Source: a virus
Reading direction: 5' to 3' (one strand)
IMG/VR virus record: IMGVR_UViG_3300027833_000015
Span: 1-64,000 of that record
Length of the DNA: 64,000 bases
Shown piece by piece: positions 13,127 through 57,297 of the stretch (position 1 is the stretch's first letter; each line of letters opens with the position of its first letter). Under the pieces are notes generated by a model. The model was not told where the DNA came from, ran no database searches, and saw only the letters and a list, made by a program, of their open reading frames with translations. Both the position numbers and the translations under genes were made by a program.

Positions 13127-15655
13127 TTATCCGAAGAAGTCCTCAAGTGATACAGACTCTTCCTCAGTCCAACCAATCGCTTCGAGCACTGGTCGGACAA
13201 CAGCGAGGAATGCCTTGTCGAATTGTTTGTCATAGTCAACATACTTATGTAGACCAAAGTCCTCAGGCAGATAGTCGTAGAACGAGATGATGTTCTGCTT
13301 GATGTGGTTCTTTGGGTTGAGGTAGATGAACTTGATCTTCTCTCCATCCTTGATGGCAGTGTGACGCTTCTCCAGACCACCGTCCTTCAACAACTTGTTA
13401 TATGTCAGGGCACCACGCACGTGGATCGGGCATCCTTTCTTGTATACAGTATTGTGGTCACGCCACTTACCTATGTCCGACACACCACGTGGGAATGCGA
13501 CCTCATGTGGTTGTAGACCGTTGAAGTGCTTGCGGAATAGTTGTATAGCATTCTGCGTGTCCTTCTCTGTACCAGTAATCATGATCTTGAACAAACCCTT
13601 CAGGGCATCACGACAGGAGGCAGGAGTCGATGACTTGACTGCTTCAATGCCCATGATCTTCAGTTTAGGTTTCGCATACTGTACACCCTCATTGTTGTGC
13701 ACGTTCAGGATGTAGCGTTTCTTGGCAGTCCATATACCGTTGTCTGCGATTGCCTCACGACCCATCACCATCTTGTTGTCATAGGCATTCATGTATGTAG
13801 CGAGGTCTTCATATGACTTGGTGAACAGAGGCACGAACTTATCCTTGCCTATCTGGTCGAGCAACTTGACTGTCTGTGCGGTGTCGGTCAATCCCATCTT
13901 CTCGACCAGTGGACCAAAGTTCACATACAGCGAGTCAGTGTCCATGGCAACCACATAGTCGAAGTTGTCCGTACCAACTATCTTGTTCATGTAGTCATTC
14001 ACTGCACGTTCTGCCCAGCGGATAGACAACTGGCCAGACAGCGTGATTGCTTCTGCCATGCGGATGTCGTAGTATCGAAACCACCTGTTAGCGAGTGCGC
14101 CATAAAGTGAGTTCATCATAATTTTAATCGCCATTTGCTGATTGTCGAGTTTGGCGATATCTTTCTCAGCAGCAGCATCACCTGCCTCAACCTGCCCTTG
14201 CAACTTGAGCATGTTCTGTTTGATCTGCTTCCTCTCAGCATATAGACCATGAATGATATTGGGCAACACACCCTGTCCATCCTTGGTGAAGTGTACGCCA
14301 TTAGCAGCAATTGATTCGGAAGGTGATGATGAGTCGGGTCGAGTATGGTCAAGACAGTTGTCGACTGTGACACCAACAGTACGGTTGCCAGAGATAGTCT
14401 CAGGCGACATGTTGTACTGCATGATGAGGTGAGGATACAGAGAGTTCAAGTCAAACGATACCACCCACTTGTGGCGACCGACCTGTGGTTCCTTAACATA
14501 ACCACCAGCGAATGATTCGGCATCGTTTTCTTTCTTGGGAGGTACAACAACCTTGCGCTTACATAGTTCACGATATATGTAGGTGTCCCACAACTGCGTG
14601 GTTCCGAAGGACTCTTGGTAGTTACAACCACCCTTGTATGCTATGGTCATTGCCAGTTCGATCAACCCCAACTTCTCGTCAATGCGCTCAACCAACTGGA
14701 CATCCTTGATGTTATAGTCGATGAACTTCTGGTAGTCTTCCTTGTACAGCGTGTATAGGTTGCCATGCTCCTCATAGGAGAGTTTCTTCTCGCCTAGCAC
14801 CACGTTGGCGATGTGGTCGAGTTTGTACGACTCCTGTACACCAAAGGTCAGGTTGCCAAACTTCTGGAACAACTCATAGTAATCCAACTGCTCAATACCC
14901 ACCATGTCATATGTCTGCATTTCGCGACCCTTGACGTGGATGTTCTTCTCACGGACTACGTTCCACGGAGAATACTTCTTGTATGTGTCACCACCAATCA
15001 TACGCTTCGTGCGGTTGATGAGATATGGGAAGTCGAATCCGCGACAGTTCCAACCAGTGACAACGTCAGGGCAGGTGTCCTTTCCGTTCCAGAAGTTGAC
15101 AAACTTCAACAGCAGGTCGACTTCGCCAGCACACTTGATGAACTTGATGTCAGCAGGGTCAACGTCAATGTGCTTGCTGCACAGTTCAGGGTCATACTCG
15201 TCGAGCAGTGCCCAAATGTAATAGGTTGGTTTGCCATGGTACTTGAGGCAGATAGACTGGACTTCGCGGAGAGCATCAACAGGTTCAGGGAACCCATCAT
15301 CAGAGGCGACCTCGATGTCGATGTCAGCAACCAGCACCTGCTTGGGGTCAAACTGTATCTCGTTGGGGAACTTATCTTGGATGTACTGCGCGGCAAAGTT
15401 GTTATTGCCATGTGCTTCGAGGGAGTCAACATACTCATATCGTTTGCTAAACTCGGTTGCCTCCTTCATGGTATCAAAGGTGACAGGTTTGACGGATCGA
15501 CCGTCCATGGTGCTCCACTCAGTCTTTCCCGCCTGACTGGTGGTCAGATACATCACTGGGTCAAACGTGTCACGGAACTGTTCACGGACACCGTCTTTGT
15601 ACCCACGGTAACAGATGTTGTTACCGATGCGAGATATATTTGTATAGAACTTCAT
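13127..15655 (-). CDS. 43: gp43 family B DNA polymerase
   Basis: 842 aa replicative polymerase with proofreading exonuclease. Exo I is DIDIEV (from residue 111), Exo II lies in TGWNCRGFDFPYL, Exo III in YNIKDVQLVERI. Polymerase motifs are DLNSLYPHL (A), KIMMNSLYGAL (B) and AMDTDSLYV (C). The C-terminus SLEDFFG is the expected clamp-binding tail: in T4 the last residues of gp43 bind gp45. A single intact reading frame, unlike the split versions in some phages. GGAGAG lies before the ATG; own promoter at 15680-15708. A PrimPol-like gene follows after 3 bases. Confidence 0.98.
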   Translation of the reverse strand: MKFYTNISRIGNNICYRGYKDGVREQFRDTFDPVMYLTTSQAGKTEWSTMDGRSVKPVTFDTMKEATEFSKRYEYVDSLEAHGNNNFAAQYIQDKFPNEIQFDPKQVLVADIDIEVASDDGFPEPVDALREVQSICLKYHGKPTYYIWALLDEYDPELCSKHIDVDPADIKFIKCAGEVDLLLKFVNFWNGKDTCPDVVTGWNCRGFDFPYLINRTKRMIGGDTYKKYSPWNVVREKNIHVKGREMQTYDMVGIEQLDYYELFQKFGNLTFGVQESYKLDHIANVVLGEKKLSYEEHGNLYTLYKEDYQKFIDYNIKDVQLVERIDEKLGLIELAMTIAYKGGCNYQESFGTTQLWDTYIYRELCKRKVVVPPKKENDAESFAGGYVKEPQVGRHKWVVSFDLNSLYPHLIMQYNMSPETISGNRTVGVTVDNCLDHTRPDSSSPSESIAANGVHFTKDGQGVLPNIIHGLYAERKQIKQNMLKLQGQVEAGDAAAEKDIAKLDNQQMAIKIMMNSLYGALANRWFRYYDIRMAEAITLSGQLSIRWAERAVNDYMNKIVGTDNFDYVVAMDTDSLYVNFGPLVEKMGLTDTAQTVKLLDQIGKDKFVPLFTKSYEDLATYMNAYDNKMVMGREAIADNGIWTAKKRYILNVHNNEGVQYAKPKLKIMGIEAVKSSTPASCRDALKGLFKIMITGTEKDTQNAIQLFRKHFNGLQPHEVAFPRGVSDIGKWRDHNTVYKKGCPIHVRGALTYNKLLKDGGLEKRHTAIKDGEKIKFIYLNPKNHIKQNIISFYDYLPEDFGLHKYVDYDKQFDKAFLAVVRPVLEAIGWTEEESVSLEDFFG

Positions 15656-20365: not shown

Positions 20366-21040
20366 TTATGCTCCGTATGCAGATGATTTCTCAAGGGCAA
20401 TGTAGTAAACTACATCAATGGTCTTACAGGTGAACTTGCTGATCAACTTCGAAGAGATCTCAACGTCATAGTCGCCAGAGATTAACTTCATGTTGGCAAT
20501 GTTCATGATGAACGTGAACTCAGTTGTGTCGCATGTACCTGGAACAACGATGTCGAATGCGTTTGAAGTGGTGTCCGTGTTGTCTACAACAGAGAGTTGG
20601 ATGCCACCCTCAACAGCAGTGATAGACACTTTGTCGTGACCTAGTGCTGCTGCTGCGCTGCGTACACGCTTGAGGGTTGCTTCGTCCAACGTAAACTTCA
20701 CTTCTGCTTCGGGCATCGGGATGTCCTTGGCAGGTGAGGTCAGGATGCTGACATCACTGTAGAAGTATTTAACACTGGATCGACCAGAGGAGTCAGACAC
20801 CTTCACAGAGTCAGCACCGAAAGCAAGTTCAGGAGCGTCAACAAGACCAAGCACCGAGAGAAATTCGTTGAGATTGTAGATGCCTACGCTCTTGTCGAAA
20901 GACTGCTCGAGATTGGCGACTGCCATCACGTTCTTTGCTTCGGCAATGGTCTTCACAACGTTGCCTTCGTGCAAGACGATATTGTCTTGGATAGAAGCAA
21001 AGTTCTTCAGTACTGCCATGGTGTTTTCATTTAAATTCAT
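20366..21040 (-). CDS. 45: gp45 sliding clamp
   Basis: 224 aa, the T4 clamp size. Ring protein that holds polymerase on DNA and activates late transcription with gp55. Starts MNLNENTMAVLKNFASIQDN; FSYDV-like strands (VKYFYSDVSILTSPAKDIP), ALGHDKVSITAVEGGIQL, then a closing strand set IDVVYYIALEKSSAYGA. AAGGAAATA precedes the ATG; strong promoter at 21082-21110. Several proteins in this window end in peptides that look made to bind it. Confidence 0.95.
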   Translation of the reverse strand: MNLNENTMAVLKNFASIQDNIVLHEGNVVKTIAEAKNVMAVANLEQSFDKSVGIYNLNEFLSVLGLVDAPELAFGADSVKVSDSSGRSSVKYFYSDVSILTSPAKDIPMPEAEVKFTLDEATLKRVRSAAAALGHDKVSITAVEGGIQLSVVDNTDTTSNAFDIVVPGTCDTTEFTFIMNIANMKLISGDYDVEISSKLISKFTCKTIDVVYYIALEKSSAYGA

Positions 21041-26638: not shown

Positions 26639-26876
26639 CAATATCGGGAACCACACAGTGATATGTGTGGACTTTCCACGGGACGGTTCCGTATCTGACC
26701 CCGACTCGAACCACAGCGTGACCATCCTTCTCATAAGAACCTCCCGCATCTTCGCACTCAATCTGTGCTGACACACCGATATAGTACGGCACAGAGAGTA
26801 CTGCCACCGCCAAAGCAGGAACACCGAATACCATTGCACGCTCTACCCAGTCGCACTTCTTCCAGAAATTTAACAT
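26634..26876 (-). CDS. Small membrane protein, 80 aa
   Basis: Starts MLNFWKKCDWVERAMVFGV, one hydrophobic helix (about 14-36), then a short domain with Cys pair (C41, C74) that would lie outside the cytoplasm. It overlaps the end of the kinase gene by 7 bases and is the last gene of the modification operon. Function unknown. Confidence 0.75.
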   Translation of the reverse strand: MLNFWKKCDWVERAMVFGVPALAVAVLSVPYYIGVSAQIECEDAGGSYEKDGHAVVRVGVRYGTVPWKVHTYHCVVPDIE

Positions 26877-27421
26877 GTTAGCGAGGATACCAGATAATCG
26901 ACAACGATCTGTGTATCATTTGGTGATTCATGGGGGAACTCAACCACGCAACCGAGTTCAGTACCAAACAGCGTGTGCTGGTCGCCAAACTTCTCGAGGA
27001 TATTCTTGCATTTGGTGCGTGTAGTCTGGATGAATTTCTCAGACTGGTCGGAACCACGCTGCCTGTATCTGCGCTCACGTTCTGCGTCCGATACGGTCAG
27101 GTGGATAATGGTGAGGTCGTCACCTGCTGCTTCGAAGAAACCTGCATTGTTGAGTCGGTCACCCTCACCAATTATGAACTCATCTGGTTTGGTGGAGATC
27201 CACTCAACTGCTTTGGGTGCCACTGCCATACTCAATCGGTCAGTGCCACTGAATGTTTCCTCTTCGGAATATTTGCCAAGGACACGGACGTTCCCTGCCA
27301 CGTGTGTATCAAGCAGGTCAATTGGGCGGTCATGCGTCCACTCACCTTGAGTCTTCATAAACTCTTTCATGATGGTGGACTTGCCAGTTCCAGGAATGCC
27401 AATTAGGTAGATCAGTTTCAT
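26870..27421 (-). CDS. P-loop kinase, candidate 5-hydroxymethyluracil-DNA kinase
   Basis: 183 aa. LIGIPGTGKSTIMKEFM (about 6-22) is a Walker A loop; FIIGEGDRLNNAGFFE and the basic lid ERERRYRQRGSDQSEKF follow, as in small nucleotide/polynucleotide kinases. In hypermodified-DNA phages a P-loop kinase phosphorylates 5-hydroxymethyluracil in DNA to activate it for amine or amino-acid attack. The GTDRLSMAV segment recalls that group, from memory. The neighbour, an amino-acid:DNA-transferase-like gene, overlaps it by ATGA. No clamp-type tail (ends VSSLTC). A nucleotide kinase is the alternative. Confidence 0.68.
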   Translation of the reverse strand: MKLIYLIGIPGTGKSTIMKEFMKTQGEWTHDRPIDLLDTHVAGNVRVLGKYSEEETFSGTDRLSMAVAPKAVEWISTKPDEFIIGEGDRLNNAGFFEAAGDDLTIIHLTVSDAERERRYRQRGSDQSEKFIQTTRTKCKNILEKFGDQHTLFGTELGCVVEFPHESPNDTQIVVDYLVSSLTC

Positions 27422-28413
27422 ACAAAGAATGCCTCAAGACCGCCAACAGTGCGATCGTCTGGTTCAAAATTACCTGTGTCAAGAAACAGGTTGTACAGGT
27501 CAGGGTCGACTGTATCCAGCAACCACTTTGACTCCAGTGATTCCTTGCGGGCATCCCACAGTGGTGTCCAGTCGATGCCTTCCCAGTTATCTGCTTCTGC
27601 TTTCTTGATCTCTTCTGCCTGACGGTCAATGTAGAAACCAAGGTAGCGACCACGACTGCGTCGATATAATTTCTTGAAAGAACACAGACTGGTTTCCATA
27701 GCAAAGAAGTCTGCCTTGTCAGCAACGTGCGGATACCGCAACTTCACTTCTTGTAGTATCTCCCTGCCATTTGCTTCAAGGAAGTCAATCTGAGTGGCGT
27801 CGAGTTTCACATTGTTCTTCTTCGAGTCGACCCACTCAGGTTTGTCCATAGCGTAGCACATACCATTGCGATGCGACTTGGATCCACTACGGTCATGGAA
27901 CCACAGACTGTCAACGTCAACATCAATGCCGCACGTCTGCTTGAGTGTCTGTATGTAGAACCAAGTGGTGTAGCGACCAAACTTGTGCCATGAGTTGACC
28001 GTATCCCACAGAGTGTAGAAGTCCTTGACAGGGTCACCAACAAAGTTGGCAGTGATTGCTTCGTGCTGTGTACGGTCACCAACATAGTCCCTGTACGACT
28101 CAAACTGTGCAGGCAGGTGTCCTTTGTTCCACTTGGTGTCAGTCTGGTAACGCAACCGCTTGTAGTTGGTGTTGTTCCAATCGCGTAAACGCTCCAGACC
28201 TACCAACTCCATATCTGGAAATTCGTTCCAAACAACATATGAAGTTGGCCAAAAGTAGGTAGTGCCATATATCCAAGAGATCCACAGACGCTGCTCTGTG
28301 TTGTACTCGAAACGGTCAAAGAAATAATTCTGTAGATACAGTGATGGATCACAGTCTTCGATTTCAAGACCACGACCAAACCACTGAGTGAATATTTCCT
28401 TGCTGTCTGTCAT
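27418..28413 (-). CDS. Amino-acid:DNA transferase-like protein (aGPT-PPlase/AADT family) with clamp-type C-terminus
   Basis: 331 aa. The pattern EQRLWISWIYGTTYFWPTSY, NEFPDMELVGLERLRDWN, LRYQTDTKWNKGHLP, KFGRYTTWFYIQTLK and DRSGSKSHRNGMCYA matches my memory of the family predicted by Iyer and colleagues as alpha-glutamyl/putrescinyl-thymine pyrophosphorylases and later shown to act as amino-acid:DNA transferases, which couple an amino acid to activated thymine in DNA. The last residues VGGLEAFFV resemble the gp43 tail SLEDFFG. ATGA overlaps on both sides. Family call is from recalled motifs, so medium confidence. Confidence 0.65.
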   Translation of the reverse strand: MTDSKEIFTQWFGRGLEIEDCDPSLYLQNYFFDRFEYNTEQRLWISWIYGTTYFWPTSYVVWNEFPDMELVGLERLRDWNNTNYKRLRYQTDTKWNKGHLPAQFESYRDYVGDRTQHEAITANFVGDPVKDFYTLWDTVNSWHKFGRYTTWFYIQTLKQTCGIDVDVDSLWFHDRSGSKSHRNGMCYAMDKPEWVDSKKNNVKLDATQIDFLEANGREILQEVKLRYPHVADKADFFAMETSLCSFKKLYRRSRGRYLGFYIDRQAEEIKKAEADNWEGIDWTPLWDARKESLESKWLLDTVDPDLYNLFLDTGNFEPDDRTVGGLEAFFV

Positions 28414-29057
28414 AGAAATGCCTCAAGAGAGAAATGGGTTGGTTCAAATAATGCTTCACGGAACCAGTAGTCGCCCACTGCTTCAATGGCAGTCTCGACC
28501 TTCTCTGTTTTCTTAACACCAAACTTGTGCAGTTCAATGCATTCATCTCTGAGTTTATCAGCAACCTTTTGCGGAGGCAGGGCAACTTCATTGTCTTTGA
28601 TTGCCAACTCACGGAACGTCAACTGCTCGTGCTTGTTTGGAAATATTGGCACGTCACAGCGCAGGGAACCACTGGGGTCAACTGCCCAGAAGATGGTGCC
28701 GTTGCGTTTGTGCCATGTCACTGACGATGGAGTACATGACATCTTCAGTCGCTGCATACCCTGCGTGTGTGCTTCTGCCATCACGTCCCAGTATACAATG
28801 GAAGCGTATCCATTACCTTCTTTGCCTTCAAGCGTGACAATCTCATACAGGTTGGCATACTTTGATCGAGCACTGAATGTGATGAAGACCAGAGCAACTG
28901 GTTCTTCACCATCGAGCAACACAAACGGTGGGTTCTTTGTATAGTTCTTAAATCGAAACCACAGGTTGTGCGACGACTTGAGGAACTTGGTGTTAGTTCC
29001 TTCGGGTTGTTCCGCGATCAGTTTCTCAACTTGCTCTTGGTTGTACCGTGTGATCAT
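28410..29057 (-). CDS. GNAT-like acetyltransferase with clamp-type C-terminus
   Basis: 215 aa. PVALVFITFS and NLYEIVTLEGKEGNGYAS (about 53-86) resemble strands 2-4 and the acetyl-CoA loop of the GNAT fold, followed by helix IVYWDVMAEAHTQGM and strand RLKMSCTP. The C-terminal 60 residues are a helical extension that ends HFSLEAFL, again like the gp43 tail. In the modification operon it could acylate an amino group placed on a base. GNAT assignment is from pattern only; the enzyme and substrate are not proved. Confidence 0.58.
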   Translation of the reverse strand: MITRYNQEQVEKLIAEQPEGTNTKFLKSSHNLWFRFKNYTKNPPFVLLDGEEPVALVFITFSARSKYANLYEIVTLEGKEGNGYASIVYWDVMAEAHTQGMQRLKMSCTPSSVTWHKRNGTIFWAVDPSGSLRCDVPIFPNKHEQLTFRELAIKDNEVALPPQKVADKLRDECIELHKFGVKKTEKVETAIEAVGDYWFREALFEPTHFSLEAFL

Positions 29058-29728
29058 TGCAAATCTACCAACATGTCGTTTTCTGAAAAGTAAGTGCGGT
29101 CTTCGACCAGTCCACTGTAGTCATTATATATGTACCTGACCATTGGATCGCATTTCACTGCTTTCCCCATGCCAGATCTCTCTATTATATCCGAAGTAGA
29201 TGCAAAGATCAACCCACCAAGGTCAGACGCCATCCACAGTGGACGCTCATGGTTGCGCCATCCTGTCAGATTACCATCCACATCAATGGCGGTCACTGCC
29301 ATAGAACGTTCGCGATACGCCTCGAGGGGAGTGTCTCCTGCCTCGATGCATCGTAGTATCAACTCAGAGTCGTTTTTAGTTTCTGTTTCATATTCCCAAA
29401 CGTCTGGGTCTTGGGAGATAACACCGTTGTGGGCAATTGCCATCTCGCGACCTTGGAATGGTTGGTTGTGTCGCAGGTCAGAGGTAGAGTATCGAATGTG
29501 ACCAATCAGCGTGAGTGTGTCGCCATCAACCCAGTCAGCAACGTTGTACTTGTCCATGAACTTGTCGGCACTGATGCCTTCTTTGATTGTGGTGAGTTTG
29601 CCTTGTTTCAGAAAGGTAACACCCGTGGCATGCTTGCCGCGAATCATGCTCTGTAGAAATAGATTCTTGACCAGAGCGTGGTGTACAGGGCGAATTCTGG
29701 GTATATGTACACCAATTACTCCGCACAT
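29054..29728 (-). CDS. Class II glutamine amidotransferase (Ntn hydrolase)
   Basis: 224 aa. Starts MCGVIGVHIP; Cys2 becomes the N-terminal nucleophile after removal of Met. IRGKHATGV, GHIRYSTSDL and AIAHNGVIS with NDSELIL are the glutaminase motifs of the GATase_7/PurF-like group, which frees ammonia from glutamine. The synthase domain is missing, so ammonia must go to a separate partner. The ATG at 29728 places Cys at position 2, which fixes the start. Such amidotransferases occur in predicted base-modification operons. Confidence 0.85.
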   Translation of the reverse strand: MCGVIGVHIPRIRPVHHALVKNLFLQSMIRGKHATGVTFLKQGKLTTIKEGISADKFMDKYNVADWVDGDTLTLIGHIRYSTSDLRHNQPFQGREMAIAHNGVISQDPDVWEYETETKNDSELILRCIEAGDTPLEAYRERSMAVTAIDVDGNLTGWRNHERPLWMASDLGGLIFASTSDIIERSGMGKAVKCDPMVRYIYNDYSGLVEDRTYFSENDMLVDLQ

Positions 29729-29880
29729 GGTATTTCGATCCACTCATATATGAATTTGGGATATGCAAAGTTTGCTTTGCGGTTGGTGTATGTGGCCACG
29801 AGTGACAGTTGGAAACGCGAGTTGTGTTCAAAGAAAGTCACTGTACCGTTTCTATTCTGTTTGTACCAAATCTTCTTCAC
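29716..29880 (-). CDS. Small basic protein, 54 aa, GTG start
   Basis: Starts (GTG)KKIWYKQNRNGTVTFFEH and ends FIYEWIEIPCAE. GTG overlaps the stop of the DUF3310 gene (GTGA), with AAGG 5 nt before; the stop lies within the amidotransferase start. It keeps the operon fully coupled. Function unknown. Confidence 0.68.
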   Translation of the reverse strand: MKKIWYKQNRNGTVTFFEHNSRFQLSLVATYTNRKANFAYPKFIYEWIEIPCAE

Positions 29881-30149
29881 ACACCTTCTTCCAAATCATG
29901 TACGTGCAGGGCAATCAGACCATAGTGCAGAACCTTCAACAAGTCCTTCCTGTTCTTACCTTCCTTCTTGCCATATCGTTGGGTGTACTTGATGACGTTC
30001 CCGAGACAGAAACCTTCACCGTGTCCTGCGTCAATGACAAACTCAGTTGTCTGCACCTTGTCCTGCGAGTAGTGCTGACCATATGTGACATCCACATACT
30101 CTTGGAGTTCTTTGATCAGTGCGTCTTCGTCATACTTATAATCTATCAT
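29877..30149 (-). CDS. DUF3310 family protein
   Basis: 90 aa. Starts MIDYKYDEDALIKELQEYV. GFCLGNVIKYTQRYGKKEGKNRKDLLKVLHYGL fits the DUF3310 (SaV-like) pattern FCLGN.IKY..R...K...DL.KA..Y. Members are often annotated as nucleotide kinases, without a P-loop here. The ATG at 30149 follows 7 bases after the oxygenase stop; upstream in-frame starts are less likely. Confidence 0.8.
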   Translation of the reverse strand: MIDYKYDEDALIKELQEYVDVTYGQHYSQDKVQTTEFVIDAGHGEGFCLGNVIKYTQRYGKKEGKNRKDLLKVLHYGLIALHVHDLEEGV

Positions 30150-30156
30150 AATAATC

Positions 30157-31554
30157 CTATCCAAAAAATTCATCAAGAGTACCAGCAACATCGAACGACT
30201 CGGGGTGATACTTTCGAGTCATCTCCTCACCACCGTTGTCAGTCAACCAGTCATACCACTCATTGTCGTCCCACATGCTCGGTGATACACCGTTCCAGTA
30301 TGGTCGCCACAGTTTGTGTTCTTCGTTCAGTCGACGCGAGTCAACGTATGCTCGACGCAGGTGCTCATATTCCCATGTGCCCAACTTCAACATATCTTCG
30401 CGGAAGTAGAACACAAGTGACATACGCATCAGGTCGTCTTCGCCAGAGTCAGGTGCCTCAATTGGAGTGTTAGCATGCATGACGCGCATGTTGTCCACCA
30501 ACAGTAGATCACCTGGACGGATATTGATGGCAGCACGAACTTCAGGGCATACCAACATACCACCCTTCCAGTCTTTCTTACCATCACTGATAACAGTCAG
30601 GTTGCTGAAACCTTCGTTCAACGAACCAGAGTCACGGTGACATGCCATACGCGCATTGCGGTCTTTGGTTGTCGTGTTGACTGTGATGGTAGTGAACGTG
30701 GTGTCTTCACCAATGAGGAACTTTGGATCCATTTGGTCAGCACACTTCTTCTGTCGTGCATGGCGAACTGGTAGCAGGTCAACAAAGGTTTGATCTAGTC
30801 GACGTGCGAACGGATAGCATTTCTCAAACACTTCACGGTTGTGATCAGTGAATGCAGTAGCACGACCATAAGGTATGCGAGGATAACGACCATAGAACCC
30901 AGCAATGCCAGACCAAATAGCAGTGGCATACATAGTATCTGAAATGAATTCTTTGCGTATCTTTGCAACATAAGTCTTTGCTTCCTCGAGTGTCATCACT
31001 CGCAGTTTGGTGAGCAGTAGTGGAAAGAACTCAGTGTATGTACCAAACTCTGGTTCGACTTTGGTGCGCAACCAAACACCACCACGATTCTCATCGTCAT
31101 CTGGTATGGCAGCAAACTCAGCAAGGGCATCAGAACCATCAATATTTGGTGGTTGTCCGTTCTCGAACCATGTCAGGACATTGATCTGGTATTGTGTGAC
31201 CCAGTCGCGATTGCCCTGTGACTCTTCACGTGGTCCCGCTGCCATGCCTCTGTTGTTTGATTCAATAGCAGCATCGAACAGACCAGCATATGCACCGTCT
31301 TGTTCTTCTTGCGTGAAAATGTTTTTACGGAACTTGAAAGCAATTCGATCTTCGTTCAGTCCTTCGTCTTCAACACCAGTGGATGGCATGTAGAAGTCTG
31401 CGTCTTGGTCAACGACAATGTCGAAGTGACTTTCGTCTGGGTATTGACCTTTGAGTGCTTCGGAGTCTTCGATGAACAGGGCAACATATACATCTTGTCC
31501 CTCATCACCAATGCTCTTCTCCCAAGAGCGACCACCTATTGTTACTATATTCAT
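30157..31554 (-). CDS. TET/JBP-type 2-oxoglutarate/Fe(II) DNA dioxygenase with clamp-type C-terminus
   Basis: 465 aa. MACHRDSGS gives the iron-binding H306-x-D308; PGDLLLVDNMRVMHANTPI supplies H360; RMSLVFYFRE supplies R377 for 2-oxoglutarate. The arrangement (HRD-SG, then FSNLTVIS) fits the TET/JBP oxygenase family, which hydroxylates 5-methylcytosine or thymine in DNA. It heads the operon, behind the promoter at 31579-31607, and GAGGAA precedes the ATG. The last residues AGTLDEFFG resemble the gp43 tail. With ThyX and no hydroxymethylase in view, thymine to hydroxymethyluracil on DNA is the attractive reaction; 5-methylcytosine is the alternative. Confidence 0.75.
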   Translation of the reverse strand: MNIVTIGGRSWEKSIGDEGQDVYVALFIEDSEALKGQYPDESHFDIVVDQDADFYMPSTGVEDEGLNEDRIAFKFRKNIFTQEEQDGAYAGLFDAAIESNNRGMAAGPREESQGNRDWVTQYQINVLTWFENGQPPNIDGSDALAEFAAIPDDDENRGGVWLRTKVEPEFGTYTEFFPLLLTKLRVMTLEEAKTYVAKIRKEFISDTMYATAIWSGIAGFYGRYPRIPYGRATAFTDHNREVFEKCYPFARRLDQTFVDLLPVRHARQKKCADQMDPKFLIGEDTTFTTITVNTTTKDRNARMACHRDSGSLNEGFSNLTVISDGKKDWKGGMLVCPEVRAAINIRPGDLLLVDNMRVMHANTPIEAPDSGEDDLMRMSLVFYFREDMLKLGTWEYEHLRRAYVDSRRLNEEHKLWRPYWNGVSPSMWDDNEWYDWLTDNGGEEMTRKYHPESFDVAGTLDEFFG

Positions 31555-34571: not shown

Positions 34572-35159
34572 TTACTCCTCGAAGAAAGCAGAGAGGTCAG
34601 AATCAACTCTCACTGTGCGCTTTGTTACCATTTTCTTCTTATAGTCTTTTATCTTGGTATCGTTTTCTTTGACATCGTCAATCCTGCGTCGCAGGTTATC
34701 GACAAATGATTGCACTGCCTTGGCGACCTGTGGATCTTCATTCGGGTCAACCATAAACTCTTCCAGACCAGACTCAGCAAGATAGTTCAGTTTGACATCT
34801 TGTTGACGCTGCTCTTTCTTGATGCGTCGAAGGAAAGCATACCATGCAATCTGGGTGAAGTAACCAAACGCATTTGGTTTGCCCTTGCGTGTTGCTGCTT
34901 CGACGTTATAGTTCTTGCATGCGCGGAGACAGTTCTCAACAGCATCCATGACCATCTCTTCACGATAGGTGTACCGCACAAAGTTAGACTTGTGTGACAA
35001 TCCTTCAGAGATCTTCAGGAAGCACTCAGCAACGTAACGTGGCATCTGTGGTATCTTTTCTCCTGCTGCTTCTGCCTCACGGACAGATATAACATGATCT
35101 ACAACTGATTGTGAGAACAGGGCATTATTAACATAATGTGGGCGTTCGCTGGGTTTCAT
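34572..35159 (-). CDS. 55: gp55 late-transcription sigma factor
   Basis: 195 aa. Recruits host RNA polymerase to TATAAATA-type late promoters. HYVNNALFSQSVVDHV and ISEGLSHKSNFVRYTYREEM match the T4 gp55 core, with NAFGYFTQIAWYAFLRRIKKEQ as the sigma region 2-like part. The C-terminus SDLSAFFEE corresponds to the T4 gp55 clamp-binding epitope SLDFLYE. It precedes gp47 and is the first gene behind the 35193-35221 promoter. Confidence 0.95.
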   Translation of the reverse strand: MKPSERPHYVNNALFSQSVVDHVISVREAEAAGEKIPQMPRYVAECFLKISEGLSHKSNFVRYTYREEMVMDAVENCLRACKNYNVEAATRKGKPNAFGYFTQIAWYAFLRRIKKEQRQQDVKLNYLAESGLEEFMVDPNEDPQVAKAVQSFVDNLRRRIDDVKENDTKIKDYKKKMVTKRTVRVDSDLSAFFEE

Positions 35160-55404: not shown

Positions 55405-57297
55405 TTATTCTTGTCCGTCGAAAGAAATACTACAACGTATTTGTCGAGTATCTTTTTGTTTCACGGTGATATTATATACTGCTTTCGCGGAGACGTTTAT
55501 CGCGCGAGTATCTTTTTCTTTCACCGTGGTATTATATATTCCTTTCGCGGAGACGTTTATCAAGCGAGTATCTTTTTGTCTGACATTAACGTATTTTGCT
55601 AATGGCACCTTTCCGTATTTTCTGAACAGTATAGTAGAAGCACTGATAACGGAAGGACTTGCCTTTGGAGTTGAATCAACTCCTGTCACCGTCCTCTTGG
55701 TTGTTCCCACGACAATAGCAGGCGATGGTTGAATGTGAATTCTTGGTTCTATTTCTCGTTCACCAGTGCATAGAACCACGCAGTTCGTGGTCTGTAGAGC
55801 ACCACTTGCTGTGATCACCCTTTCCGCAGAACCAGAAAGATTAGAAGGTTGAGATTCAAGTTGTGTATCGACCGTGTCTTTTATTGTTCTTTCTGCGATG
55901 CCATCTACTTTGACTTCGGTATCTTGACAGATCGCAGAAACTACGACTACAACTACACGCTCACCATCTCCCGCAACAGTTACAACACCGACCTCATCTG
56001 CTGTGAGAGCACCATCAAGAACATTGATGGTCCTTCCTCCAGCACCAACTACTGTGCTGGCAGTTGATTGTACTGCTTGGTCTATTTCGTTTGTTTCAAT
56101 TTCGCGTTCAGCGAGACCGACAACAGAGGATGCTGTAGTTTCGAGTGTGCCTTGTATCGATATAATTCTTTCTGATGAACCGACCACTTTGCTCTGGTCA
56201 TTGACCAGACTACCACTGGCATTGATTATTCTCTCAGCAACGCCACTCGCTACGCTGGCAGATGATTGTACTGCTTGGTCTAATTCGTTTGTTTCTATTT
56301 CTCTCTCAGCGACACCATCCACAAGTGAAGCAGTGGTATCACAGTAACCATAACCAAATACAGAACGCTTAGTAGTGGCAGCAACAACGGAGGGACTTGC
56401 CTTTGGAGTCGAATCAACTCCAGTCACTGTTCGTTTGGTTGTACCAGAGACGACATTCGATATTGTCGGGCGAATGACGACGGAAGGTCTTATTTCTCGT
56501 TCAGAGACGCCATCGACTTTGCTCTGGTCGACGACCACAGCACCACTGCCAGTGATTACTCGTTCAGAGACGCCAACGACTTCGATCTGGTCGTCGACGA
56601 CCAGAGTACCACTGCCTGTGACTGTTCTCTGTGCTGTTGCAGAGACGGTGGAGGTCTGTGCTTGAAGTGCCTGAGTAGTTTCATTTATCTCGACGATACG
56701 TTCGGCAACACCGCTGGCAACAGAAACTCCTGTGGTCAGGGCAACGGTGGATCGTATCTCTCGTTCACTGGTAGAAGAAACATTTGCATCAGCGGTAACT
56801 ATTACACCTGTACCAACAATCGTTCTCTCTGCTGTTGCAGAGGCAGTGGAGGTCTGTGCTTCTAGTGATATGGAGGTTCTTATTTGCCTCTCAGCGACAC
56901 CAGAGACGACATTCGATATTGTCGGTCGAATAACGACAGTCCCTGGTTTTCGACCAACATCTGCTATACCACTGACAACGGATGGGGTGGAGACTTCGAC
57001 TGCGGAAACTACGGTTACAACTACACGCTCACCATCTCCAGCGACAGTTACAACACCGACCTCATCTGATGAGAGGTCGCCATTGACTACATTGATTTGA
57101 CGTTTAGAGGTGCCGCTTACAGAAGCATCGCCAGTTACAAGGATGGCGTCTACAGAATTGCGTTGTAGTGTTGCTTGCCCAGAGACTTCGGAATCTTGGG
57201 AAACGAGTTCCACGACCAGAACATGAAGACTGGTTGCATAGTCGACCGCGACATAGTCGATATCGACGTATTCGAAAATTTGACCAGATGATGCCAA
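55405..57297 (-). CDS. Highly repetitive virion protein, TTG start
   Basis: 630 aa. About twenty repeats of 23-30 residues with a core VSGxAER-x-I (variants SEREI, TTKRTV), plus two copies of DEVGVVTVAGDGERVV. The C-terminus has three KDTRxINVSAKxxYN units. Such beta repeats would make a long fibre or surface-binding rod. Start: TTG at 57297 with AGGAAC before it and CTAAATA 30 bp upstream; no ATG candidates. Low diversity; no family recognised. Confidence 0.78.
   Translation of the reverse strand: MASSGQIFEYVDIDYVAVDYATSLHVLVVELVSQDSEVSGQATLQRNSVDAILVTGDASVSGTSKRQINVVNGDLSSDEVGVVTVAGDGERVVVTVVSAVEVSTPSVVSGIADVGRKPGTVVIRPTISNVVSGVAERQIRTSISLEAQTSTASATAERTIVGTGVIVTADANVSSTSEREIRSTVALTTGVSVASGVAERIVEINETTQALQAQTSTVSATAQRTVTGSGTLVVDDQIEVVGVSERVITGSGAVVVDQSKVDGVSEREIRPSVVIRPTISNVVSGTTKRTVTGVDSTPKASPSVVAATTKRSVFGYGYCDTTASLVDGVAEREIETNELDQAVQSSASVASGVAERIINASGSLVNDQSKVVGSSERIISIQGTLETTASSVVGLAEREIETNEIDQAVQSTASTVVGAGGRTINVLDGALTADEVGVVTVAGDGERVVVVVVSAICQDTEVKVDGIAERTIKDTVDTQLESQPSNLSGSAERVITASGALQTTNCVVLCTGEREIEPRIHIQPSPAIVVGTTKRTVTGVDSTPKASPSVISASTILFRKYGKVPLAKYVNVRQKDTRLINVSAKGIYNTTVKEKDTRAINVSAKAVYNITVKQKDTRQIRCSISFDGQE
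55435..55590 (-). repeat. Three tandem 60-bp repeats at the end of the VSGxAER gene
   Basis: Each unit contains gagtatctttttctttcac and cctttcgcggagacgtttat on the plus strand, coding for KDTRxINVSAKxxYNxTV. Closely similar copies, a recent duplication. Confidence 0.8.

Follow-up and report, generated by a model that had tools for sequence, protein, structure and literature searches.

C-terminal peptides shared with the DNA polymerase argue for sliding-clamp tethering of phage DNA hypermodification enzymes

The window analysed here comprises 64,000 nucleotides, positions 1 to 64,000 of the 153,883-base virus record IMGVR_UViG_3300027833_000015 (IMG/VR). It encodes three putative DNA-modification enzymes, a Tet/JBP-like 2OG-Fe(II) oxygenase, an amino-acid:DNA transferase (AADT, or ADDT) and a GNAT-like protein, which end in the same type of short peptide as the DNA polymerase gp43 and the late sigma factor gp55 of the same phage. 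These tails are very probably linear motifs for docking on the sliding clamp, by which the three enzymes would be tethered to gp45 and modify freshly made DNA. The original prediction had proposed such tethering from the window alone, and it is supported at the sequence level by the conservation of the tails, by their tracking of the polymerase tail, and by a swap from gp45-type to beta-clamp-type tails, which goes beyond what had been proposed. In our judgement the sequences strongly support clamp tethering as a predicted feature of phage DNA hypermodification.

Tails of the window phage

The genes that carry the tails, and the presumed receptor, are the following:

13127-15655, minus strand: gp43 DNA polymerase, family B (phrog_262, E=0; DNA_pol_B, 4.5e-31); clamp-type C-terminal peptide ...ESVSLEDFFG, SLEDFFG codons at 13130-13150
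20366-21040, minus strand: gp45 sliding clamp, presumed receptor of the tails (phrog_223, 1.3e-70; gp45-slide_C, 1.6e-14)
27418-28413, minus strand: AADT (PF18724, ADDT, 1.2e-23); tail GGLEAFFV, codons at 27421-27444
28410-29057, minus strand: GNAT-like protein (Acetyltransf_1, 0.0013); tail FSLEAFL, codons at 28413-28433
30157-31554, minus strand: Tet/JBP-like 2OG-Fe(II) oxygenase (Tet_JBP, 3.8e-14), 465 aa from the ATG that homologues use; tail ...AGTLDEFFG, TLDEFFG codons at 30160-30180
34572-35159, minus strand: gp55 late sigma factor (phrog_234, 1.5e-49); clamp epitope ...SDLSAFFEE, DLSAFFEE codons at 34575-34598

The five C-termini quoted in the original prediction were found on the minus strand exactly as given there. 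The AADT and the Tet/JBP-like oxygenase pass the curated Pfam cut-offs (84.5 bits vs 26.2 for ADDT and 52.7 bits vs 34.9 for Tet_JBP), whereas the product of 28410-29057 narrowly misses that of Acetyltransf_1 (19.4 bits vs 20.7) and is GNAT-like at best. The phage also encodes gp44 and gp62, and residues 1-221 of its gp45, nearly the whole length, align with RB69 gp45 (1b77/1b8h, 1.2e-24). The peptides thus share with that of gp43 an extreme C-terminal position and a hydrophobic and acidic composition, and their presumed receptor is encoded in the same genome. A near-identity DNA search against phages gave no match, nor did tblastn of the GNAT-like protein against phages.

With the strict tail defined as L-x-x-F-[FLM]-x{0,2} at the C-terminus, no other likely gene in the window ends in the motif, in agreement with what had been claimed. 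Two more likely genes do so in the rest of the record. One, on the minus strand at 90022-90771 (L004:7522-8271), encodes a gp26-like baseplate protein ending ...GLSDFF; the ending lies within the PF12322 family and the C48C1 counterpart ends ...GIDDFF, so that it is probably a family feature and unrelated, and was set aside as a clamp tail. The other is a 96-aa open reading frame (ORF) without family match (144569-144859, L007:5069-5359, minus strand) ending ...YNSLEGFM, possibly a further clamp binder. The likely gp33 of the window phage (91 aa, near 93139) and that of C48C1 have no such tail. Judged by how often the motif occurs within proteins, chance alone would place it on about 0.2% of C-termini, and its presence on three of three modifiers is therefore far above chance. 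As the motif was defined on these data, the independent tests are homologues and other phage lineages.

Conservation and spread among T4-like Tet phages

Scanning viral contigs yielded 80 Tet loci, which were analysed alongside three cultured phages, C48C1, DLP6 and Cr30; 63 of the 82 Tet-bearing loci also contained a core T4 gene of replication or transcription. The strict tail was found on 80/82 Tet proteins, 15/16 gp43, 20/42 gp55, 23/43 AADT and 12/21 GNAT proteins. Most of the non-strict AADT end in GLEAF, GLEAFYGIN or SIDKFFT, and the non-strict GNAT proteins are near-variants resembling SLEKF, SLMDF, SLDDFV or SLEEWF. Hence nearly all T4-like homologues keep the tail, and the pattern that had been named as fatal to the idea, homologues without the peptide beside a gp43 that keeps it, did not emerge as the rule. 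In the alignments Leu-460 and Phe-463 of Tet show zero entropy among the sequences that reach the column; Leu-326 and Phe-329 of AADT are likewise invariant, and the stretches before these residues vary. In a set of 55 distinct DNA sequences for the Tet tail, all six codons for the Leu and both for the Phe occur, which shows that selection acts on the amino acids of the tail. A variable, unstructured linker before the tail is indicated by the high upstream entropy and by the AlphaFold2 model of AADT (mean pLDDT 89.6), in which residues 323-331, the tail, fall below 50 and outside the confident fold. The model of Tet, built with the window and IMG/VR sequences as input, is too weak to count (pLDDT 70.6); its PDB matches are topped by Tet enzymes and are not significant.

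The tail is not peculiar to the three enzymes in which it was first noticed. Clustering by tail, which covered all 1571 ORFs of the T4-like Tet loci, confirmed it on these three and showed a wide phenomenon across modifier families. The TET-associated glycosyltransferase (TAGT) families A and B carry it in 7/7 and 7/8 cases, a GT-B glycosyltransferase in 6/6, a second GNAT family in 7/12, an HNH protein in 3/3 and a 117-aa protein in 2/2. Single tailed cases are a SAM-methylase-like protein, a P-loop kinase, a GIY-YIG-like protein and a 222-aa protein of no assigned family, and the D12 adenine methylase (Dam-type) beside the C48C1 polymerase is tailed as well. None of the structural families among the 1571 ORFs carries it. 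TAGT ends in ...SDLSSFFN in DLP6 and in ...SDLSKLF in Cr30, where the polymerase ends ...ADLSSLFD; in G001 polymerase and TAGT both end SVSLEDFFA, with mostly different codons.

The 117-aa, HNH and GIY-YIG-like proteins with the tail are found at L027:5652-6005, L029:4451-4939 and L068:5162-5698, respectively. Could clamp-bound nucleases be among them?

The likeness of the tails could in principle be due to chance, hydrophobic C-termini being common, or to inheritance, with gene ends copied from gp43 by recombination. The two further matches in the window genome, found by motif alone and one of them the baseplate protein, suggest that such coincidences may occur. Conservation across 80 Tet loci with all six codons for Leu in use, the low chance expectation, the mostly different codons of the identical G001 tails and the restriction of the tail to DNA-acting families make this explanation very improbable.

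Polymerase tails and the available clamp

The tails of modifiers mostly follow that of the polymerase where the latter is different. The Ackermannviridae have AADT and kinase, and polymerase tails of other sequence, which the AADT and kinase tails appear mostly to follow. In Vibrio phage D506 the polymerase ends RKLW, the kinase KKLW, the AADT RKLW and a 394-aa protein KRLW; in the kuttervirus group the corresponding ends are NLLSMMGKKG for the polymerase, SLLGLLSKG for the kinase and NLMSLLKR for the AADT, and Klebsiella and Dickeya relatives are alike. When all genes of a phage were ranked by how closely their C-termini resemble that of its polymerase, modifiers took places within the first few in D506, G001, C48C1 and Cr30. 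The same ranking in T4 recovers gp55 and an ORF ending ...TNTLDFLL, probably gp33. Over 15 lineages the own-polymerase pairing scored 21.1 vs 13.3 by permutation (P ~1e-5), and over seven clades it was the best of 5040 pairings, although these P values are guides only, as lineages and tails were hand-chosen and are related by descent. Likeness ranking, lineage comparison and permutation all favour the co-variation with the gp43 tail on which the original prediction was to be judged.

Small ORFs with the clamp-type tail of their lineage were seen in D506 (55591-55890, ...KTKRLW), FEC14 (30164-30376, ...VNLLSLMSK) and A8-29 (67069-67290, ...GVLRFFKPR), and are candidate gp33-like coactivators.

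A second group of Tet phages, the relatives of P12024L (80 loci in small phages), offers a different test. Twelve contigs of 24-36 kb, perhaps partial in some cases, gave no match to gp45, beta clamp, PolA or PolB (PF09116, PF02768, PF00476, PF00136), and within these contigs the phages would seem to rely on the host replisome. Here the end Q-x-x-[LIMV]-F is found on the TAGT cluster (53/53), the kinase (20/20), the C5 methylase (3/3) and a 151-aa protein (33/60), as well as on N6/N4 methylases, a radical SAM protein and 2/9 AADT. Loci of gp45-type phages have 184 gp45-type tails and 1 beta-type tail in 1387 ORFs, against 6 and 117 in 1345 ORFs of P12024L-type loci. The swap is seen within single families: the bodies of one kinase family are 49% identical between the groups while the tails are NDLSSFF (gp45) vs QQTSLF (beta), and one TAGT family shows the same swap at 30% identity. 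The Tet protein of the P12024L group ends KTGYLTL, with no clamp motif. In Mycobacterium phage Hydro, which has its own PolA and no detected gp45, AADT and kinase are without tails. Taken together, the type of tail appears to follow the available clamp, gp45 or beta.

Two other explanations are best weighed here. Hydrophobic C-termini, when exposed, can serve as protease tags, and the tail might be a degron or a folding element that limits the lifetime of the enzymes and has no relation to DNA. This would leave the tracking of the polymerase tail unexplained; in addition, the polymerase and the late sigma factor share the peptide and its type changes with the clamp, so that we give a degron hardly any credence. 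Alternatively, the tails may dock on a shared partner other than gp45, such as an RNA polymerase subunit, a hub protein or each other. The case for gp45 is itself sequence-based, and the modifier tails of A8-29 and L178 are unlike that of their polymerase. On the other hand, gp43, gp55 and gp33 of T4 have this epitope in common, and there it binds gp45 and can be exchanged between the three proteins (PMC2988020). A switch to the bacterial beta-clamp consensus where no clamp was detected is also hard to explain by another partner, which is accordingly improbable.

Proposed mechanism and known systems

If the tails are clamp ligands, the C-terminal peptides would sit in the clamp's hydrophobic pocket, and the Tet oxygenase, AADT and GNAT-like protein would be held flexibly on gp45 rings left on newly made DNA. 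There they may carry out successive steps, in which the methyl group of a pyrimidine is oxidized and activation, transfer of an amino acid and acylation follow, perhaps also during clamp-activated late transcription. Phages without a clamp of their own would use the host beta clamp by way of the QxxLF tail. We infer the binding, its fork-coupled timing and benefit, the use of clamps in late transcription and the chemistry of the products. Two further genes lie in the same region:

26870-27421, minus strand: P-loop nucleotide kinase 3, adjoining AADT (Ploopntkinase3, 7.3e-19); ends ...VSSLTC
29054-29743, minus strand: class II glutamine amidotransferase-like protein, part of the same run of genes (GATase_6, 8.6e-10); ends ...VDLQ, no clamp tail

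The kinase is likely a pathway partner of AADT, and the two together point to hypermodified pyrimidines as the probable product. A C5-cytosine methylase (PF00145) was found in none of ten T4-like Tet records, the window genome included; it was therefore rejected as source of the Tet substrate, and Tet may act on thymine. The amidotransferase-like protein and most of its homologues have a conserved terminal D-[LM]-Q, sometimes with a few residues beyond. Elsewhere in the window, 1657-2937 encodes a phage protein with a reprolysin-like metallopeptidase domain.

Several observations weigh against clamp tethering of the modifiers. The Tet protein of Cr30 has lost its tail while polymerase and TAGT keep theirs, the one clear exception among Tet proteins, and a few AADT homologues in T4-like phages are without a clamp tail, as are most AADT of the beta group. 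The kinase that partners AADT is untailed both in the window phage and in nearly every T4-like Tet phage. Modifiers of A8-29 and L178/L179 end K[KR]LW or RKLW and their polymerases VLKFFK or VFSFIKK, the exception to the tracking of gp43. Finally, expression and not clamp binding was judged the main reason for the dominance of T4 alpha-glucosyltransferase (alpha-GT) (PMC13216743), and gp45 binding need thus not matter much.

This last point also favours a variant compatible with clamp tethering, in which the tails bind gp45 mainly for late transcription, other complexes or the assembly of modifiers rather than for coupling to the fork: gp55 uses the clamp in late transcription (PMC2988020, PMC7892883), and alpha-GT binding does not set the share of T4 glucosylation (PMC13216743). 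Yet the fork enzyme gp43 usually shares the tail type (A8-29/L178 excepted), and modifiers keep clamp-type tails in phages with no detected gp45. We regard the variant as unlikely, if well worth keeping in mind.

It is tempting to go further and regard clamp tethering as a general rule, with whole hypermodification pathways (oxygenase, kinase, AADT, acyl- and glycosyltransferases, methylases) put together on the clamp that serves replication of the phage DNA, gp45 or host beta, and perhaps several successive enzymes per ring in the manner of a tool-belt, a generalization towards which we lean slightly. In that case swapping of tails would let modification cassettes move between phages with different replisomes, and a change of about six residues may be enough to fit a cassette to a new replisome. 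Tethering would account for dense base modification soon after synthesis, before restriction enzymes act. The tail may further serve as a sequence tag for spotting DNA modifiers among phage genes of no known function, and whether hypermodification is coupled to the fork becomes a question that simple assays of peptide binding and tail deletion could address.

In the open-access papers searched, no published tails on Tet, AADT, TAGT or GNAT proteins and no gp45/beta swap were found, and within these papers the generality, the polymerase-matched tails and the swap appear to be new. Tethering of a phage base-modifying enzyme as such is not, contrary to what had been assumed at the outset. T4 alpha-GT (AGT) binds gp45 (Sommer 2004, as cited in PMC13216743 and PMC6024577), which was confirmed by pull-down (PMC13216743), and like the tailed modifiers it was proposed, according to these citations, to act behind the fork. 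It is, however, a single enzyme, and the AGT of the T4-group phage RB55 ends ...CFKEQFDIITK without such a tail, whereas here the peptide recurs on many unrelated enzyme families. A close likeness is with the clamp epitopes of gp43, gp55 and gp33 of T4 and RB69, represented by the RB69 gp45-peptide complex, which are hydrophobic and acidic C-terminal peptides of the same position and composition after a variable linker and in T4 are interchangeable gp45 ligands (PMC2988020). These epitopes are known on polymerase and transcription factors only, and are here found on Tet, AADT, GNAT-like proteins, glycosyltransferases and a methylase. Similarly, the extreme C-terminal QxxLF of TAGT, kinase and methylases in Tet phages where no clamp was detected fits the bacterial beta-clamp pentapeptide consensus QL(S/D)LF (PMC9690074), with the difference that the carriers are phage DNA-modification enzymes and ligands predicted from sequence. 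A eukaryotic parallel is DNMT1, which binds PCNA (PMC9690074): enzyme, motif (a PIP box) and clamp are different and the process is maintenance methylation, but there too a clamp motif brings a DNA-modifying enzyme to new DNA.

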